The position numbers were made by a program, and so were the translations under genes. Of a stretch of 64,000 nucleotides of DNA, positions 34,128 through 63,157 are shown in pieces; the first letter of the stretch is position 1; every line of letters begins with the position of its first letter. The DNA comes from Prasinococcaceae sp. CCMP 1430 (Eukaryota; Prasinodermophyta; Palmophyllophyceae; Prasinococcales; Prasinococcaceae): the NCBI GenBank assembly GCA_013416795.1, contig RQSC01000029.1:657744-721743 (forward strand), in the 5' to 3' direction. Below the pieces are notes generated by a model, which ran no database searches, had not been told where the DNA came from, and saw nothing but the letters and a program-made list of their open reading frames with translations.

Positions 34128-37100
34128 TTGCCCAACGTTGGCATCAACAGCCAGTTCATCACGTTCACCCATGTGACGATGGAAAGCGAGAAGTACGTGT
34201 GTGTGCGCGAGACCGGCGGCAACAATTCTGTCGTGATCATCGACATGGCAAACCCCATGCAGCCGCTGCGCAGGCCCATCACGGCCGACTCGGCACTCAT
34301 CAACCCCAACTCCAAGGTGATCGCACTGAAGGCCGCCATCCCCAACACGACGCAGGACCATCTGCAGATCTTCAACATCGACGCCAAGGCCAAGATCAAG
34401 TCCTTCCAGATGCCTGAGCAGGTGGTGTTCTGGAAGTGGATCACGCCCGGCATGATCGGCATCGTTACGGCCGGCGCGGTGTACCACTGGGGAATGGATG
34501 GCGCCTCCGACCCTGTGAAGGTGTTCGACCGCACCGCCAACCTCGAGGGCAACCAGATCATCAACTACCGCTGCTCGCCGGACATGAAGTGGCTGGTTCT
34601 GGTGGGAATCACCGCGGGCAGCCCCGAGCGCCCGCAGCTGGTCAAGGGCAACATGCAGCTCTTCTCGGTGGAGCAGACGCGCTCGCAGGCGCTGGAGGCG
34701 CACGCCGCCGCCTTCGGTCAGGTGAACGGCACCAACGTCATCACCTTCTCCACCAAGACGGTGGCGAACGGCGCGCTCACCTCCAAGCTGCACATTGTGC
34801 CTCTGGGAGGCACCGGCTTCACCAAGAAGCAGGCGGACCTCTTCTTTCCGCAGGAGTTCGCCGATGACTTCCCGGTGTCCATGCAGGTGAGCGAGAAGTA
34901 CGGCCTGATCTACGTGATCACGAAGCTCGGCCTGCTCTTCGTGTACGACCTCGAGACTGCCACCGCCGTGTACCGCAACCGCATCTCGCCGGACCCCGTT
35001 TTCCTCACGGCGTCCTCCGAGGCCACCGGCGGCTTCTACGCGATCAACCGCCGCGGCCAGGTTCTGCTCGCCACTGTCAACGACCAGACGATCGTACCCT
35101 TCATCAGCGGCCAGCTGAACAACGCGGAGCTCGCCATGAGCATCGCCAAGCGCGCCAACCTCGCGGGCGCCGGTGACCTGGTCTTCCGCCAGTTCGACCA
35201 GCTCTTCGCGCAGGGCAACTACAAGGGCGCGGCCGAGCTCGCGGCGCAGAGCCCGCAGGGCGCGCTGCGCACGCCGGAGACCATCGCCAAGTTCCAGCAG
35301 GTGCCGGTGCAGCCGGGGCAGACCTCGCCGCTGCTGCAGTACTTCGGCACGCTGCTCACCAAGGGCGGCCTTAATGCCATCGAGTCCGTGGAGCTCGCGA
35401 AGCTGGTCATCTCGCAAAACAAGAAGCAGCTGCTGGACAACTGGATGGGCGAGAACAAGCTTGAGTGCTCCGAGGAACTCGGCGACCTGCTCGCGCAGTC
35501 GGACCAGGACATGGCCCTCAAGGTGTACGTCAAGGCGCAGGCGAGCCCGAAGGTCGTCATGATGCTGGCGCAGAAGAAGGAGTACGAGAAGATCGCGAAG
35601 TACTCGCAGCAGGTGGGCTACACGCCGGACTGGCTGCAGCTGATGATGCAGATGCTCATGCACGACGGCCAGGGCGCTGTCAACCTCGCGCTGATGATCG
35701 TGCAGCAGGACCCGCCCGGCCTCGACCTCAACACCATTACGGATCTGTTCCTCCAGCGGAACATGATCCGCGAGGCCACGAGCTTTCTGCTGGACGTGCT
35801 CAAGCCCAATCTGCCCGAGCACGCCATGCTGCAGACGAAGGTGCTCGAAATCAACCTCATCACCTTCCCAAATGTTGCCGACGCCATCCTGGGCAACGGC
35901 ATGTTCACGCACTACGACCGCCCGCGCATCGCGCAGCTGTGCGAGAAGGCCGGCCTGTACCTGCGCGCGCTGTCGCACTACACCGACTTGCCGGACATCA
36001 AGCGCTGCGTGGTGAACACGAACGCCATTGAGCCGCAGGCCCTCACCGAGTTCTTCGGCACGCTCAGCCGCGAGTGGGCGCTCGACTGTCTCAAGGAGCT
36101 TCTCACGCTCAACCTGCGCCAGAACCTGCAGCTGGCCGTGCAGATCATGAAGGAGTACACCGAGCAGCTCACCGCCGAGTCGTGCATTGAGCTGCTCGAG
36201 TCCTTCAACTCGTACGAGGGCCTGTACTTCTACCTGGGCTCGTACATCGCCTTCTCGGAGGACAAGGACGTGCACTACAAGTACATCGAGGCCGCCGCAA
36301 AGACCGGCCAGATCAAGGAGGTGGAGCGCGTGACGCGCGAGTCGAACAACTTCGAGCCTGAGCCCGTCAAGCAGTTCCTCATGGAGGCCAAGCTCCCGGA
36401 CGCGCGCCCGCTGATCAATGTGTGCGACAGGTACGGCTTCGTCCACGACCTGACGACCTACCTGTACGACAACTCGATGCTGCGCTACATCGAGGGCTAC
36501 TGTCAGAAGGTGAACCCCAGCAACACCCCCGAGGTGGTCGGCGCGCTGCTCGACAAGGAGTGCGACGAGGACTTCATCAAGAACCTCATCGTGTCGGTGC
36601 GCTCGCTGATCCCGGTCGAGAAGCTCTGCGAGGAGGTGGAGAAGCGCAACAAGGTCAAGATCTTGAGCGCCTTCCTCGAGCACCTCGTCAACGAGGGCTC
36701 TACCGACGTGCACGTGCACAATGCGCTCGGCAAGATCATCGTTGACTCCAACAACAACCCTGACCACTTCCTCACCACCAACCCGTACTACGACAGCGTG
36801 GTGGTCGGCAAGTACTGCGAGAAGCGCGACCCCAACCTCGCGTGCGTTGCGTACAAACGCGGCCAGTGCGACATGGAGCTGGTGGCCGTCACCAACAAGC
36901 ACTCGCTCTTCAAGCTGCAGGCGCGCTACATCACCGAGCGCATGGACCTGGAGCTGTGGGAGCAGGTGCTCGACGAAGGGAATGAGTTCCGCCGCCACCT
37001 GATCGACCAGGTCGTTTCGACCGCGCTACCCGAGGCCAAGAACCCTGAGCAGGTGTCTGTGACCGTCAAGGCCTTCATCAACGCAGACCTTCCCAACGAG

Positions 37101-39113
37101 CTCATCGAGCTGCTGGAGAAGATCGTGCTACAGAACTCGGCATTCAGCGGCAACCCCAACCTGCAGAACCTGCTTATTCTGACGGCGATCAAGGCCGACA
37201 AGACGCGCGTGATGGACTACGTCAACCGCATGGACAACTTTGACGGCGCTGCGGTGGGCGACATCGCAGTGGGCTCGGAGCTGTACGACGAGGCCTACGC
37301 CATCTACAAGAAGTTCAAGCTGCACTCGCAGGCCATCTCGGTCCTCATCGACAACCTGCAGGACTTCGAGCGCGCGCAAGATTTCGCGAGCAAGGTGGAG
37401 GAGCCGGAGGTGTGGGCTGTGCTGGCGCGCGCCATGCTCAATACGGGCGACGTCGCAGGCGCCATATCTGGCTTCCTCAAGGCGGGCGACTCCACAGACA
37501 ATGCGGCCGTCATTGAGGCCGCCGAGGCTGCGGGCGAGTACGAGGCGCTCGTCAAGTATCTGCAGATGACGCGCAAGAAGGTCAAGGAGGCGCGCGTGGA
37601 CAGCGCGCTGTGCTACGCGTTCGCGAAAACCGGCGCGCTCGGTGAGCTCGAGGAGTTCCTCACGGTGCCCAACTCGGCGGACATCAGTGCGTGCGGCGAC
37701 AAGTGCTACGACGAGGGCCTGTACGAGGCCGCCAAGGTGCTCTTTACAAACGTGTCCAACTGGGCGCGCCTCGCGAGCACACTTGTCAAGCTTGGGCAAT
37801 ACCAGGCGGCCGTGGACGCCGCACGCAAGGCCAACTCGATGCGCACCTGGAAGGAGGTGTGCTTCGAGTGCGTTCTGCGCGACGAGACGCGCCTGGCGCA
37901 GGTGGCTGGTCTGAACATCATTGTGCACGCGGATGAGCTCGACGAGGTGTCCGAGTTCTACCAGCGCAAGGGCAAGTTCGACCAGCTCCAGGCACTGCTC
38001 GAGGCCGGTCTGGGGCTGGAGCGCGCGCACATGGGCATCTTCACCGAGCTCGGCATCATGTACGCCAGGTTTGCGCCCGAGAAGCTCATGGAACACATCA
38101 AGCTCTACGCCACGCGCGTGAACATCCCGCGCCTCATCCGCACGTGCGACGAGCAGCAGCACTGGAAGGAGCTCGCGTTCCTTTACTGCCAGTATGACGA
38201 GTACGACAACGCCGCCGTCACCATCATGACGCACTCGCCGGACGCGTGGGAGCACTCAACCTTCAAGGATGTGCTGGTCAAGGTGGCAAACATGGAGCTC
38301 TACTACCGTGCGATCAACTTCTACCTCGACGAGCAGCCTCAGCTTGTCAACGAGCTGCTGGCGGTGCTGTCGAGCCGCGTGGATCACTCGCGCGTGGTCG
38401 ACCTGCTGCGTCGCGCAGGCCAACTGTCGCTCGCGAGGCCTTACCTGGAGCAGGCGCAGCAGGCCAACCTTGCCGCGGTCAACGAGGCCGTCAACCAGCT
38501 GTGCGTGGACGAGGAGGACTACGAGGCGCTGCGCGCTTCCATCGATACCTATGACAACTTTGACGCTGTGGCACTCGCCGTCAGCATCGAGAAGCATGAG
38601 CTGCTCGAGTTCCGCCGCGTGGCCGCCACGCTGTACAAGAACAACAAGCGCTACCGCAAGTCGATGGAGCTGTCCAAGGAGGACAAGCTCTACAAGGACG
38701 CGATGGAGACTGCGGCGATGAGCGGTGAGCACGAGCTGGTGCAGGAGCTCATGCACTTCTTCGTGGACAACCAGATGAAGGAGTGCTTCGCCGCCTGCCT
38801 GTACACGTGCTACGACCTGGTGAAGGTTGACGTGGCTCTCGAGCTCGCGTGGCTCAACGGTATGATGGAGTTCGTCATGCCCTACCTCATCCAGTCGATC
38901 CGCCACTACACCGGCCTCGTGGACAAGCTGGAGCAGGCGCGCCTCGACGCCGTCGCCGAGGAGGCCAACAAAAAGGCTGCGGAGAAGCAGGAGGAGCAGC
39001 AGGCCAACATGTACCAGCAGCTGCTGCCGCCGGCGCTTCCTGCTCCGGAAATGCCCAACGGGCAGCAGGGCTACCCAGGACAGCCGGGCTTCGGCGGCCC
39101 TGGGGGCTACTAA
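34128..39113 (+). CDS. CLTC: clathrin heavy chain (first few codons missing)
   Basis: A single open exon of 1,661 codons. The acceptor CACATAG at 34121-34127 is followed by TTGCCCAACGTTGGCATC, encoding [28 protein letters not shown], which aligns with residue about 16 onwards of clathrin (NLGINPANIGFNTLTMESDK). The beta-propeller ([27 protein letters not shown]), ankle and seven CHCR leg repeats follow without a break, ending with [25 protein letters not shown] and a Gly/Pro/Gln tail. Length matches the family (about 1,675). It forms triskelia that coat endocytic and Golgi vesicles. Only the N-terminal about 15-20 residues, presumably in an upstream exon, are not located. Strong C-ending codon bias suggests high expression. 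TGTAA motifs occur 6 and 78 nt after the stop. Confidence 0.96.
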
Positions 39114-57814: not shown

Positions 57815-58060
57815 NNNNNNNNNNNNNNNNNNNNNNNNNNNNNNNNNNNNNNNNNNNNNNNNNNNNNNNNNNNNNNNNNNNNNNNNNNNNNNNNNNNNNN
57901 NNNNNNNNNNNNNNNNNNNNNNNNNNNNNNNNNNNNNNNNNNNNNNNNNNNNNNNNNNNNNNNNNNNNNNNNNNNNNNNNNNNNNNNNNNNNNNNNNNNN
58001 NNNNNNNNNNNNNNNNNNNNNNNNNNNNNNNNNNNNNNNNNNNNNNNNNNNNNNNNNNNN
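57815..58060. other. assembly gap (246 N)
   Basis: Run of 246 N flanked by very GC-rich simple sequence (GCCGGCGCCGGCGCC on the left). It removes the 5' ends of both flanking genes and their shared promoter. Confidence 1.
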
Positions 58061-58780
58061 CGGCCGCGCGTCGCGGCGGCGCGCCCGCCGACGCGGACGT
58101 TGCAGTGCGGACGAGGGCGCGGTGGGGGCAGCGGTGGGGGGCAGGGCCGCAGGGGCGGCCGCGCCGCCGCACGACCGGGGTCGGGCAGCGGTGAAGGCGC
58201 AGAGGACGACGAGGGTGTCGTTGACAGCGGCGCGCGCGACACGCTGCGCGCGCTGGAGCGCCTGTCGCGCGACGCGAGCAAAGGAAGCGACGAAACCTCC
58301 GCTGGCCTGCAGGCGAACGAGGCCGCTGCCGATGTCGTGGAGCTCGAATTTGCCCTTCCCGACGGCGAGCGTGCCCCGCTGCGCCTGCGTACGCCGCCTG
58401 TGGGTGGGCAATACGTCTATGCGCGCGCGCGTTTGCCGCTCGGAGCGACCCTGCATGATGTCGGAAGTGAAATCGTCGTGGAAAGCGTGGAGGCTGACGG
58501 GGAGGCCGACAAAGCTGGCGTGCTCCCGGGCGACGCTCTCGCTGCCATCTCGGTCGCGGTGCCACGTATGACCTACCCTGGCGGCAACTTGCTGCTTGGG
58601 GGCGTTGGTCGGCCAGGGATTGCGTCGGGGTGGTACGTTGTGGCCGATGAATCGGAGGGGTCAGAGGAACAAGAGGGAGATGAGGAGGAAGGGGCCGCTT
58701 TCGCCGCGGCGCTGCGCGCTCTTGGCACCAACGCGAGACGCGCCGACCGTAGCGTCGCGCTCGTGCTCTGCCGAAGATAG
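58061..58780 (+). CDS. PDZ-like domain protein, 5' end in assembly gap
   Basis: About 240 residues visible from the gap edge to TAG 58778-58780. A Gly/Arg-rich and acidic linker leads to DVVELEFALPDGERAPLRLR TPPVGGQ, then EIVVESVEADGEADKAGVLP GDALAAISV, the typical PDZ strand-turn-helix (V-x(3)-GxAxxAGVLPGDxL). After that come a Gly-rich loop, an acidic stretch (DESEGSEEQEGDEEEGAAF) and a short ADRSVALVLCRR C-terminus completing the PDZ fold. Algal plastid proteins of this kind are common, but location cannot be told without the N-terminus. Transcribed divergently from the gene at 57227. Confidence 0.6.
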   Translation, partial: RPRVAAARPPTRTLQCGRGRGGGSGGGQGRRGGRAAARPGSGSGEGAEDDEGVVDSGARDTLRALERLSRDASKGSDETSAGLQANEAAADVVELEFALPDGERAPLRLRTPPVGGQYVYARARLPLGATLHDVGSEIVVESVEADGEADKAGVLPGDALAAISVAVPRMTYPGGNLLLGGVGRPGIASGWYVVADESEGSEEQEGDEEEGAAFAAALRALGTNARRADRSVALVLCRR

Positions 58781-58972
58781 CGAGGCCGTGCGCTGAGGCA
58801 TGGGGCCTACTGCGCTGCGGCAGAGCCTCTTTAGCTACTGGACGGAGCTGCTGAGCCCCGTAGAGTTGATGTGATTATATTGAGTTTGTAGTCTACACTA
58901 TAGATTTGATGCGAAGCCCACCTACGAGCCTGCCTTCAAGTGCGCCTCTGCAACCACCCTTTAGCTCGCACG

Positions 58973-61498
58973 CTACCCTGAGTTGGCTTCCAGTTTTGCC
59001 TGTATGAGCTTGAACATTTCCTCGCACTCGACTTGCCGAGCAAGGGGGGCCGAACGCGTTCGGTCGGGGTGCAGTCGCAACGCAGCACGGCGATACGCCG
59101 AGCGCACTTGCGCTGCCGAGTCGCCAGCGGGCGCAAAGCCGAAGGCAGAAAGCACGCCTGGGAGGTCCAGGTGCCCACCCTGCGCGTGCACGCACACAAA
59201 TGCGCGGAAGTACGCGTATATTAGCACGTCAGGCATCGCACGAGAAGCGTCGAAGTCGACTTGACGCGCACGGATGCACGAGTGCCCATCGCAAAGTGCG
59301 TGGCGCAACGCACCTTCTCAGCCACGCGAGCTGCCACATCCGCGCGCAGATTCTCGCGCTGTGCGGCCTCCGACGCGGCCGCCGATGCCACCGCCGCGGC
59401 CTCTTGCCGACGCCGCTCGAAACGGTCAGGGGTACCGCGCTCGCCCTTGCCCTCGTCTCCACGCTCGCTCGCTCGCTCGCGAGCATTCGACTGCGCGCTC
59501 GACACTGCACTCGCAGAGGATGCAGGCCTGGCATTGCGCCGGGATTGGCAGTCAGGGCGGTCGTGGTCGTCCTGTGGTCCACGTGCGTTTGAGCCCGCTT
59601 GTGCGTCGTTTGCGTGCGCACGTGAGCCCTTGCCCGGGCTCTCGTAGCTTTCGTATCCACCCTCGTAGAGCTCCTCCTCCCAGCGGTACGGCTCCGGCGT
59701 CGGTGAGGAGCCACGCGCTCGCGCTCGAGCGTGCGCCGCCGCTGCGTCTGCCGGGGCCCGCCCACGCTGTTCCTCGGAAGCGTGGCGCGCAGTGGACTCG
59801 TTTGGAGCCCGCGATGCCAAGCTTTCCTCGTCATCCTCACCACGCGCGCCTGTAGGTGTGTCAGGCGCGTCTCCGCCCTTCGAGACGCCCGGCTCCAACA
59901 CCGTCTGACGTCCACCGATGAAGGCCTCGATGGTGACGTCAACGTCCCATCTGCACGCTTCGAGCCATGATGCGGCATCGAGCGCACCCACGCCAGTGAC
60001 GTCCATCACCTGGCATGCCGCCAGCGCGCGCGATGCGTTGCCGTCGCACATGCGGAGCGCGCGCAGCGCCTGCTCGGCGCTTAGTCCCTGCGCAAGACAG
60101 CCCAGAGCGTCGAGCTGGCGTAGCAGGCGTTGCTCCGCCAGGCCGTCCTCCTTGGCCTCCGCGGCACTCCCAACGCGGGCATCGTCGTCCATACTGCCCT
60201 CCCGTGTGTGTGGCGACGCATGTGCGTCGTCACTGCGCAGCGCCCCGACTTCGCGCGCAAGATCCACCTCGAGCGGTTCCTCGCCAAGCATCACCAGAGC
60301 GCGCGCGGACAGTTCGTCGCCGCAATAGAATGCGCCTCGCACCAGCCGCACGTGCAGGCCGGCCAATGGGGCCAGAACTTTGAAGAGGAGCGCTCGGTAG
60401 CGCGGCAAGCCGGCCTCGGTGATGTCTGCGGGCGCTCGAGCAGCGCGACGGCACGGCAGGGCGGAGTCAGAACAGCGCTCGCCTGCTCGCCTACCCCCCC
60501 CCCCTTCCCCCACCCCCCCCCCCCCCCCCCCCCCCCCCCGCTTCCCCCGCTCTCGCGCCTCAATCTACGCGCGTCGCACCTCCAAGTGGCAACGCGAGTG
60601 ACCCCCTCTCGCAACGGAGGCGCGCCGACACCTCACGCCAGCGCTCATCGGCTGCGTTCGCCTCGAACGCGGCAGCTGACTTGCTATTCGGCTGTCGTCG
60701 CTTTTTGGGAGAGACCCCGTCCATCTGGTTGGCCACGATCACAGCCAGCGCGGCTGCCCGGCCCCGTTCATCCACGCCTGCATACGGCGCCATTTCCTCG
60801 GCCACATACTCGCACAGGGCCGCCAGGGCGGCGTCCCTGCCACGGTCCACGTAGACAACCTCGCGCGTGTCGGCGTAGAACGCTTCGAAGGAGCTTGGCG
60901 CATGCGGGGGGGCATCCGCCCGCATCGCCTCCAGCGCCTGCAGCGACGGTAGCCGGCTCGTGCCTATTGCGTCTTCGTCGAACCCCCAAAGCTCGTAGTA
61001 CCCATCGCACAGCTCCTCGTTCTCACGCACGCAGCATGTCACGAAGGCCACCGCCGCTTGCGCCTGACCCTCGGCGGAGGGGGGCGGCGCGGGCGGCGGT
61101 GAGGGGGAGCGCGAGCGCGCGTGCGCGTATGCGTGCTCCGACGGCTCGTACACAGAAGTTGCGTGTGCCCGCTCGTCCGCGGCTTGGAAGCGCTGCTGCT
61201 GCGCGCGCTGCTCCTCGAAGAATGCGTACTGCGCGCGCTGTTCAGCCTCAAATTCCTCGTACGCCGTCTGCTCGGCGCGCCGCCGCCGAGCCTCCTCCTC
61301 CTCCTGCCACCGCTGGCCTCCCCCTCGCTCCCACCAGTCCTCTCCATGCGCGCGCTGCAGCGCTGGCGCGGTTGGCGACGCGCCGGCTCGCGCGCCGGCG
61401 TTGGCGCGGCGCGCGCGCTCCGCCGCAGCGGCGGCCTCGGCCTCGGAGGCGCTCAGTGCCATCGCCAGCAGCAGCTCCTCGTCGTCCTCGCCGTCCAT
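58973..61498 (-). CDS. UIM + EDR1 domain + UBA-like + J-domain fusion protein
   Basis: Three exons, 61498..60580, 60425..59314 and 59179..58973 (745 residues), phases 1 and 0 consistent, donors GTGCGA and GTGCGT. Residues about 4-20 are a ubiquitin-interacting motif (DDEELLLAMALSASEAE). A Gln/Glu/Arg coiled coil follows. About 150-375 is an EDR1 domain (PF14381): CDGYYELWGFDEDAI, RLPSLQALEAMRA, EVVYVDRGRDAALAAL, RWREVSARLRCERGSLALPL G joined to DITEAGLPRYRALLFKVLAP and HVRLVRGAFYCGD. Near 405-445 is a UBA-like three-helix segment (QALRALRMCDGNASRALAAC). After a disordered acidic region and a charged helix, exon 3 encodes a J-domain ending (AYRRAALRLHPDRT, HPD motif intact). EDR1 domains are known from plant Raf-like kinases; this combination suggests a ubiquitin-guided Hsp70 cochaperone. 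Confidence 0.78.
60494..60539 (+). repeat. poly-C tract inside an intron
   Basis: Eleven C, TT, five C, A, then 27 uninterrupted C (60513-60539), within intron 1 of the UIM-EDR1-J gene (60579..60426 on the minus strand). The transcript would carry a long G run able to form G-quadruplexes. Confidence 0.95.
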
Positions 61499-61711: not shown

Positions 61712-62569
61712 CTACTCGCCCGCCGGCGGCCTGCGCGCGACGAGGACCTCCGAGCACAAGAGCCCAAGGAAGTCCTCGCCTTCGCCGCACACGACGGCGC
61801 GCTCGAGCACCTCGAATCCGGCGCCCTCCGCGTATGGCGCCAGCGCCTGGGCTCGGCAGCCGCCGACGACGTGCGGCGTTAGGCTGTGAATGAGAGCCCA
61901 GACCGCCGCCGCAATGCGGCGAGCCACACCCGCTTCCTCCGGCGGTGGCGAGAGGCCCGCGAGGGCGAGCACGCCGCCAGGCCGCAGTGAGGTGCGCGCC
62001 TCGGCGAAGAACGCGCGCACGTCACTGTCGCTCAGGAGGTCCAGCATGTACGTCGACACGACCAGGTCCAGAGGGCCACCCTCCTGTGCCGCCGCAAAGG
62101 CGGCCGCCTGCGATCCGTCTGTCTCCACGACGACGGCGCGCGTATCACCTCGCAGCCGCGTCCTGGCGTTCGATGCCTGGACGCTCGAGAGATCAACGCA
62201 GGTGTAGCGCTGGCACGCAGGCGCGAGCTCGTCGCCGAGCAGCTGCGCCGCCAGCTTCCCCGAACCACTCCCCACCTCGAGCACGTGTCGCACTCGCTCA
62301 TCGGCCACGGCATGCGCGAGTGCCGCGCGCAGCGCCGCGACCGCGTTGCGCCCATACGAAGACCCTGAGTCGTCAACTGTCTGCCCGGCGCGGTCGTACA
62401 CGCGCTGTGCTGCGCTGCGGCTCAGCGTGCGGCGCGTATCAAGCGGCGCCGCGCCACGCGGCGCCGAGCGGCGGCACCGTGACTGAAGAAGGGCTCGCGC
62501 CCGTGCTCGCGCCAGCGCCTGCGGCTGCGGCTGCTGCTGCGCCGCGGGGCGTGAGGCCATCGCCCGCAT
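61712..62569 (-). CDS. SAM-dependent methyltransferase
   Basis: 285 residues from ATG 62567-62569. The first about 50 residues (RAMASRPAAQQQPQPQALAR ARARALLQSRCRRS) are Arg/Ala/Gln rich and could be an organelle-targeting peptide. The class I Rossmann fold is clear: AQRVYDRAGQTVDDSG, VRHVLEVGSGSGKLAAQLLG (motif I, GxGxG), YTCVDLSSVQASNARTRL (acidic end of strand 2), PLDLVVSTYMLDLLSDSDVR (motif IV), AEARTSLRPGGVLALAGLSP (motif VI), then a C-terminal substrate region with GAGFEVLERAVV. Substrate unknown; it resembles generic small-molecule methyltransferases (Methyltransf_11/25). Divergent from the gene at 63158. Confidence 0.8.
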   Translation of the reverse strand: MRAMASRPAAQQQPQPQALARARARALLQSRCRRSAPRGAAPLDTRRTLSRSAAQRVYDRAGQTVDDSGSSYGRNAVAALRAALAHAVADERVRHVLEVGSGSGKLAAQLLGDELAPACQRYTCVDLSSVQASNARTRLRGDTRAVVVETDGSQAAAFAAAQEGGPLDLVVSTYMLDLLSDSDVRAFFAEARTSLRPGGVLALAGLSPPPEEAGVARRIAAAVWALIHSLTPHVVGGCRAQALAPYAEGAGFEVLERAVVCGEGEDFLGLLCSEVLVARRPPAGE

Positions 62570-63157
62570 GGCTCCGCGCGTCACCTCAGGAGGGGCCGAG
62601 GCTGCGCCCGCGTGCCCGGCGTGTCGCGGCTTGGAGTGCGGTGACCAGCACCACGGCCGCGCCGCTGCGACGCGCAGCACCCCCGCGGTGCGCTGCGTCA
62701 CAGCGTGCAGGGCGATGTGGCAGCGCAGTCTCCCACCACAAACCACTCACCGCCCACCTGCCCACACCAGCGCACTCGGCGCTGCTTCGACGACACGCCA
62801 CGCCCACGAAACCATAATTCAGGTTAAACCCTAACATCTTCTTCGCTTGAAGGGTTTGTACGTTACATCAAAATGAGTGGTGTTTCACCGTCGAGGGTTT
62901 TTGGCCTTGGCGTGCAAGCTGTGTGTGTGTGTGTCTCCATCGTGCGCCGTCGGGGGTCTCGCTGGGCGGCCACCACGCAGCACGCCCGTGCGTGGGGGGG
63001 CGTGTGCGTGCACGTGCATGCGAGCGTAGGCGCGTTCGGGCGCTCGCCACAGCGCGGTCGGTCTGCGCGGCCGCGGGCGAGGGATGGCCTGCGTGGCGGC
63101 CCGCGCGCGCGCGGCGGCGCACGCGGCACGCGGCATGCGGCGCGCGGCGGCGGTCGC
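62570..63157. promoter_or_regulatory. divergent region with an AAACCCTAA telobox
   Basis: 588 nt between the methyltransferase (minus) and the next plus-strand gene. AAACCCTAA occurs at 62826-62834 in a short AT-rich patch (62815-62890); the rest is GC-rich with GTGTGTGTGTGT at 62921-62932. No gene is seen. Confidence 0.4.

Follow-up and report, generated by a model that had tools for sequence, protein, structure and literature searches.

A spliced gene of Prasinococcaceae sp. CCMP 1430 joining an EDR1 domain and an auxilin-type J domain to likely ubiquitin-binding modules

In plant hormone and defence regulators the EDR1 domain precedes a kinase, and its job there is left unexplained in the available parts of the PF14381 literature. 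A gene in the prasinodermophyte alga Prasinococcaceae sp. CCMP 1430 raises the question of what this domain does when the kinase is missing and the neighbours are of another kind. The gene lies in a 64,000-nucleotide stretch of contig RQSC01000029.1 (assembly GCA_013416795.1, positions 657,744 to 721,743; hereafter the window, GC content 67.8%), where it runs on the minus strand from the ATG at 61498 to the stop codon at 58973-58975 in three exons and encodes, once spliced, a protein of 745 amino acids. A sequence-only reading of this locus had described a UIM, an EDR1 domain, a UBA-like segment and a C-terminal J domain in one protein and had proposed a new class of ubiquitin-guided Hsp70 cochaperone. 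We lean, by a modest measure, towards an auxilin-like J protein directed by ubiquitin. As a kinase-free protein with EDR1 set between likely ubiquitin-binding modules and a J domain, it offers a concrete and testable hint on the job of EDR1.

The coordinates, the strand and both junctions of the sequence-only reading proved exact, with phase-matched exons and introns bounded by GT and AG (Table 1). The gene model is best tested by a relative, P0001, which has the same order of parts and crosses both splice junctions without a gap. It was the only protein at E up to 0.001 when residues 150-745 were searched against 5.8 billion proteins (7,996 candidates scored), and it is 743 amino acids long, with 54% identity over the full alignment. 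At the first junction, where one codon is split 1+2, the spliced gene reads LPLGDITEAGLPRYRALLFK and P0001 reads IPLGDITEAGLPRHRALLFK; at the second, P0001 is continuous. Without splicing, the frame of exon 1 would stop a few residues past LPLGG, midway through EDR1. The single spliced gene that had been proposed is thus borne out by one intact protein. A pair of neighbouring genes, or a model joined in error, would find some encouragement in an identical copy, 1,884 bases long, of the 3' half of the gene on contig C87, which lies beside a run of N and suggests assembly trouble or a recent duplication, but the gapless junctions of P0001 and the presence of all parts in one protein in each of three further relatives (P0004-P0006) make this explanation very improbable.

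Table 1. Parts of the gene and of its protein, in window coordinates
Feature	Position	Strand	Remarks
Exon 1	60580..61498	-	Starts with the ATG (61498); encodes the UIM-like helix and the N-terminal part of EDR1
UIM-like helix, residues 5-21 (DDEELLLAMALSASEAE)	61436..61486	-	Consensus fit, shuffles and best PDB matches; not by PF02809
EDR1 first part, from residue 153	60580..61042	-	Pfam on the protein, and per exon
Intron 1	60426..60579	-	GT..AG, 154 bases, holds a poly-G run; junction supported by P0001
Exon 2	59314..60425	-	Remainder of EDR1, double UBA, low-complexity linker
EDR1 second part, to residue 369	60238..60425	-	No Cys or His at the aligned positions; Asp361 retained
Putative five-helix double UBA, residues 398-480	59905..60153	-	Profile matches, structure model, fold matches
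Intron 2	59180..59313	-	GT..AG, 134 bases; P0001 aligned across it without a gap
Exon 3	58973..59179	-	Auxilin-like J domain with HPD, then stop; in phase

The duplicated segment itself (window 58061-59944, identical to C87:4364-6247, L012) begins on C87 directly after a 4,363-base N run and on the window side abuts an N run at 57815-58060, which suggests either a recent duplication or an assembly artefact; equal-scoring J matches at C59:198006 and C75:15266 hint at further such duplicates. The poly-G runs of intron 1, at about 60494-60539, are likely places of sequencing-length uncertainty and leave the coding frame untouched.

Wider searches returned few relatives. A query with residues 128-460 of P0001 gave two proteins at E up to 0.001, the sole addition being a Brassica EDR1 kinase (P0002), and a query with residues 268-345 gave five at E up to 10 among 273 candidates, namely P0001 and P0003-P0006. 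P0004, P0005 and P0006 (862-873 amino acids) carry EDR1 and UBA_4 above their cut-offs and an HPD-bearing DnaJ match below its own (23.9-24.4 bits); P0003 (714 amino acids) has EDR1 and UBA_4 and no J domain. In all four a UIM-like stretch lies some tens of residues upstream of EDR1. By sequence, then, the order UIM-EDR1-UBA-J that had been read from this locus is found in the window gene, in P0001 and in three of the four more distant proteins, although P0004-P0006, being closely similar, may stand for one lineage. The absence of a kinase was likewise upheld, none being among the four Pfam families listed for the protein at E up to 10. A scan of viral contigs with P0005 turned up no relatives, none of its nine pattern matches being confirmed, and a Foldseek search with the whole protein had 84 matches at E up to 10 but none at 0.001 or better.

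EDR1 is the firmest of the domains (PF14381, 81.6 bits, E 8.9e-23, well over the cut-off of 27). The family is placed in the papain-like superfamily, near C71 and C93, in the available part of PMC10318531, and an active papain-like enzyme, a deubiquitinase or a transamidase-like protein coupled to Hsp70, would fit that placement. However, alignment to the genome's other EDR1 gene shows Pro in place of Cys and no His, with Asp kept, a loss read against a triad of Cys, His and Asp that is itself inferred in that gene; the papain-like domain of ARMC3 is also described as lacking catalytic residues in the same portion of that source (PMC10318531). An active enzyme is therefore hardly credible here, and the domain is probably an inactive fold of papain or transglutaminase type. 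Two roles had been suggested for it, binding or papain-like, and the loss of Cys and His favours binding over catalysis.

The other of the two EDR1 loci found in the genome is a stand-alone gene without a kinase on contig C59 (L013, about 7381-5945, minus strand). We considered it as a kinase and rejected this, the sequence after EDR1 holding none. It retains Cys, HAW and LD at the papain-like triad positions and is, judging from these residues, possibly an active member of the family.

At the other end of the protein, which exon 3 closes, a J domain with HPD is present as had been reported. DnaJ (PF00226, cut-off 27.8) scored 29.4 bits on exon 3 alone and fell short on the whole protein (24.2 bits), as it did in P0001 (24.9 bits). 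A profile of five J sequences lies nearer to auxilin and JAC1 than to conventional DnaJ, with HPD kept. The fold of the P0001 J domain has its best structure match in JAC1/auxilin and matches auxilin in its Hsc70 complex (2qwo). The earlier assignment can accordingly be refined: by sequence profile and structure comparison the domain is of auxilin/JAC1 type and not a generic DnaJ. We take the protein to be of class C in the known scheme of J proteins. The likeness to JAC1 and the plant AUXILIN-LIKE proteins concerns this domain, the best match in sequence and, on P0001, in structure, but when P0001 is aligned structurally the identity in the J part is no more than 19%, and outside the J domain of JAC1 we know of no EDR1 or UBA. 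JAC1 is listed as AUXILIN-LIKE6 in the available part of PMC9798423.

These J sequences also bear on a different explanation, that the protein is a signalling scaffold in which EDR1 binds partners of the kind that it has in CTR1/EDR1 kinases, with a J domain reduced to a degenerate interaction surface with no function towards Hsp70. EDR1 is indeed the top-scoring domain, J stands near its cut-off and P0003 has none, but HPD and the Arg that follows it, together with V49, E52, E53, F55, K56 and Q59 (numbering of the J alignment), do not vary among the five, the fold agrees with Hsc70-bound auxilin, and neither of the two EDR1 loci is an EDR1 kinase. We regard such a scaffold as quite unlikely.

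The modules expected to read ubiquitin vary in how readily they are recognised. The UIM consensus runs acidic-hydrophobic-Ala-Ser-acidic, and DDEELLLAMALSASEAE, near the N-terminus, matches it. A stricter pattern found the window protein as sole match of seven proteins scanned. The pattern as widened after the relatives were seen (T and Q allowed) had one other independent match in the 79,211 residues of the window's six-frame translation and arose in 425 of 20,000 whole-protein shuffles and, when the first 30 residues alone were shuffled, in 98 of 20,000. Against 177,635 PDB sequences the peptide gave four matches: the UIM of Hrs (E 0.076), ZFAND2B (E 0.16, in a segment that we take to be a UIM), SLX4 (E 0.6) and USP25 (E 5). 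Pfam lists no UIM in the protein, and the best candidates of a PF02809 scan of the genome occupy 12 places, none in the window gene, so the assignment rests on the pattern. The helix is likely a UIM as first proposed, with consensus fit and the Hrs and ZFAND2B matches in its favour and the PF02809 profile against it. In the relatives, the corresponding stretch of P0004 and P0006 had a weak match to ZFAND2B (E 0.81) and another to a designed protein (E 8.1), and that of P0005, in which A replaces one acidic residue, fails the widened pattern. P0002 has by eye a UIM-like stretch before its EDR1, but it too fails the pattern, and its two PDB matches are designed repeat proteins with no UIM among them; a UIM-EDR1 arrangement shared with the kinases is therefore a matter of visual likeness.

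The UBA-like segment stands in part. UBA_4 is under its cut-off in the window protein (17.6 against 21.8 bits) and above it in all four of P0003-P0006 (22.7-30.9 bits); in P0001 Pfam lists no UBA family, although the region aligns at 65% identity. The predicted structure of 59890-60153 has five helices (pLDDT 78.8, pTM 0.70), and the model looks like two fused UBA modules. Foldseek gave no match to it at E 0.001 or better and 95 at E up to 10, and ACK1 fusions are among the profile matches of the region. The fold match alone is not decisive, because VIA-align places MurQ and designed toroids at Z similar to the UBA rows. A candidate five-helix UBA unit is what links the protein to the TNK1/ACK family, the UBA of TNK1 having been modelled as five helices (available part of PMC8429728); no other module is held in common, and the TNK1 rows of the fold search show 18-24% identity.

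Set together, the parts make the proposed role of a ubiquitin-to-Hsp70 adaptor plausible by domain make-up; ubiquitin binding, Hsp70 stimulation and the nature of the target are what we infer from sequence. In this mechanism, the UIM-like helix and the double UBA would bind ubiquitin on a target, EDR1, lacking Cys and His, would act as a protein-binding scaffold that adds specificity, and the long linker would allow the J domain to recruit Hsp70 to the target. With HPD intact, the J domain would trigger ATP hydrolysis by Hsp70, which might then unfold, release or uncoat the ubiquitylated target. The protein is said in this sense to work like an auxilin and is not classed as a member of the auxilin family.

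The target could be a clathrin coat. A lineage-specific auxilin that brings Hsp70 to coats with ubiquitylated cargo, much as Swa2 brings it to clathrin, with UIM and UBA reading the cargo, would agree with a J domain nearest to auxilin/JAC1 and with a clathrin heavy chain encoded in the genome (window about 35721-38786, plus strand; seven of the eight PF00637 matches in one frame of 1,661 amino acids). But a set of clathrin and adaptor motifs, scanned as regular expressions, has no match in the window protein or P0001, so the target may be other than clathrin coats; the same scan found one WGDF in each of P0003-P0006 and one DLL in P0003. A separate auxilin-like gene lies at C73:222544-222678 (L021); its product has repeated DLL motifs and a J domain at the C-terminus, so the uncoating role looks already filled. 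We judge this clathrin-bound version unlikely, if less so than the scaffold. The clathrin heavy chain repeats share the window with the gene, at a distance of about 20 kb.

Returning to the ubiquitin-directed J protein, we tentatively extend it to an algal family of ubiquitin-gated Hsp70 recruiters, a rather doubtful step, in which a UIM, an EDR1 of inactive papain-like fold and two overlapping UBA modules would together recognise coats, condensates or aggregates that carry ubiquitin, and the auxilin-type J domain would apply Hsp70 to dismantle them. By extension, the EDR1 found in plant CTR1/EDR1 kinases may derive from a proteostasis module linked to ubiquitin, the kinase having been attached later. 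Those kinases share the EDR1 domain (226.4 bits in P0002), but they end in a kinase where the window protein has a putative double UBA and a J domain.

Human DNAJB2 likewise has J and UIMs in one protein, but its J domain is N-terminal and it has neither EDR1 nor UBA; its J structure, 2lgw, is a weak match (E 0.73). Ubiquitin-binding J proteins are thus known, and 'new class' was too strong a term. Another is yeast Swa2, which combines domains for clathrin binding with ubiquitin-associated, TPR and J domains (available part of PMC5754090). In it, as is predicted for the window protein, a ubiquitin-associated domain is paired with a C-terminal J domain acting with Hsp70 (PMC5754090, PMC5473770, each as far as available). 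Where Swa2 has clathrin-binding regions and TPR, the window protein has EDR1, the UIM-like helix and the putative five-helix double UBA, and it matches none of the clathrin motifs scanned. EDR1 proteins, too, are known, and it is their union with ubiquitin-binding J proteins that is undescribed in the literature searched: no description of EDR1 joined with DnaJ, a J domain or UBA was found in full text, most subscription journals lying outside the coverage. Judged from sequence, the combination looks like a new way of bringing Hsp70 to ubiquitin-tagged targets and, if true, would be a second, EDR1-based route beside Swa2 for pairing an auxilin-type J domain with ubiquitin reading.

Upstream of the gene, an open reading frame on the minus strand (window 61712-62746) carries a motif, VLEVGSGSGKLAAQLL, that by eye is SAM-methyltransferase-like. 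The 24.5 Mb genome has 22 matches to the light-harvesting family PF00504, which marks the organism as photosynthetic.
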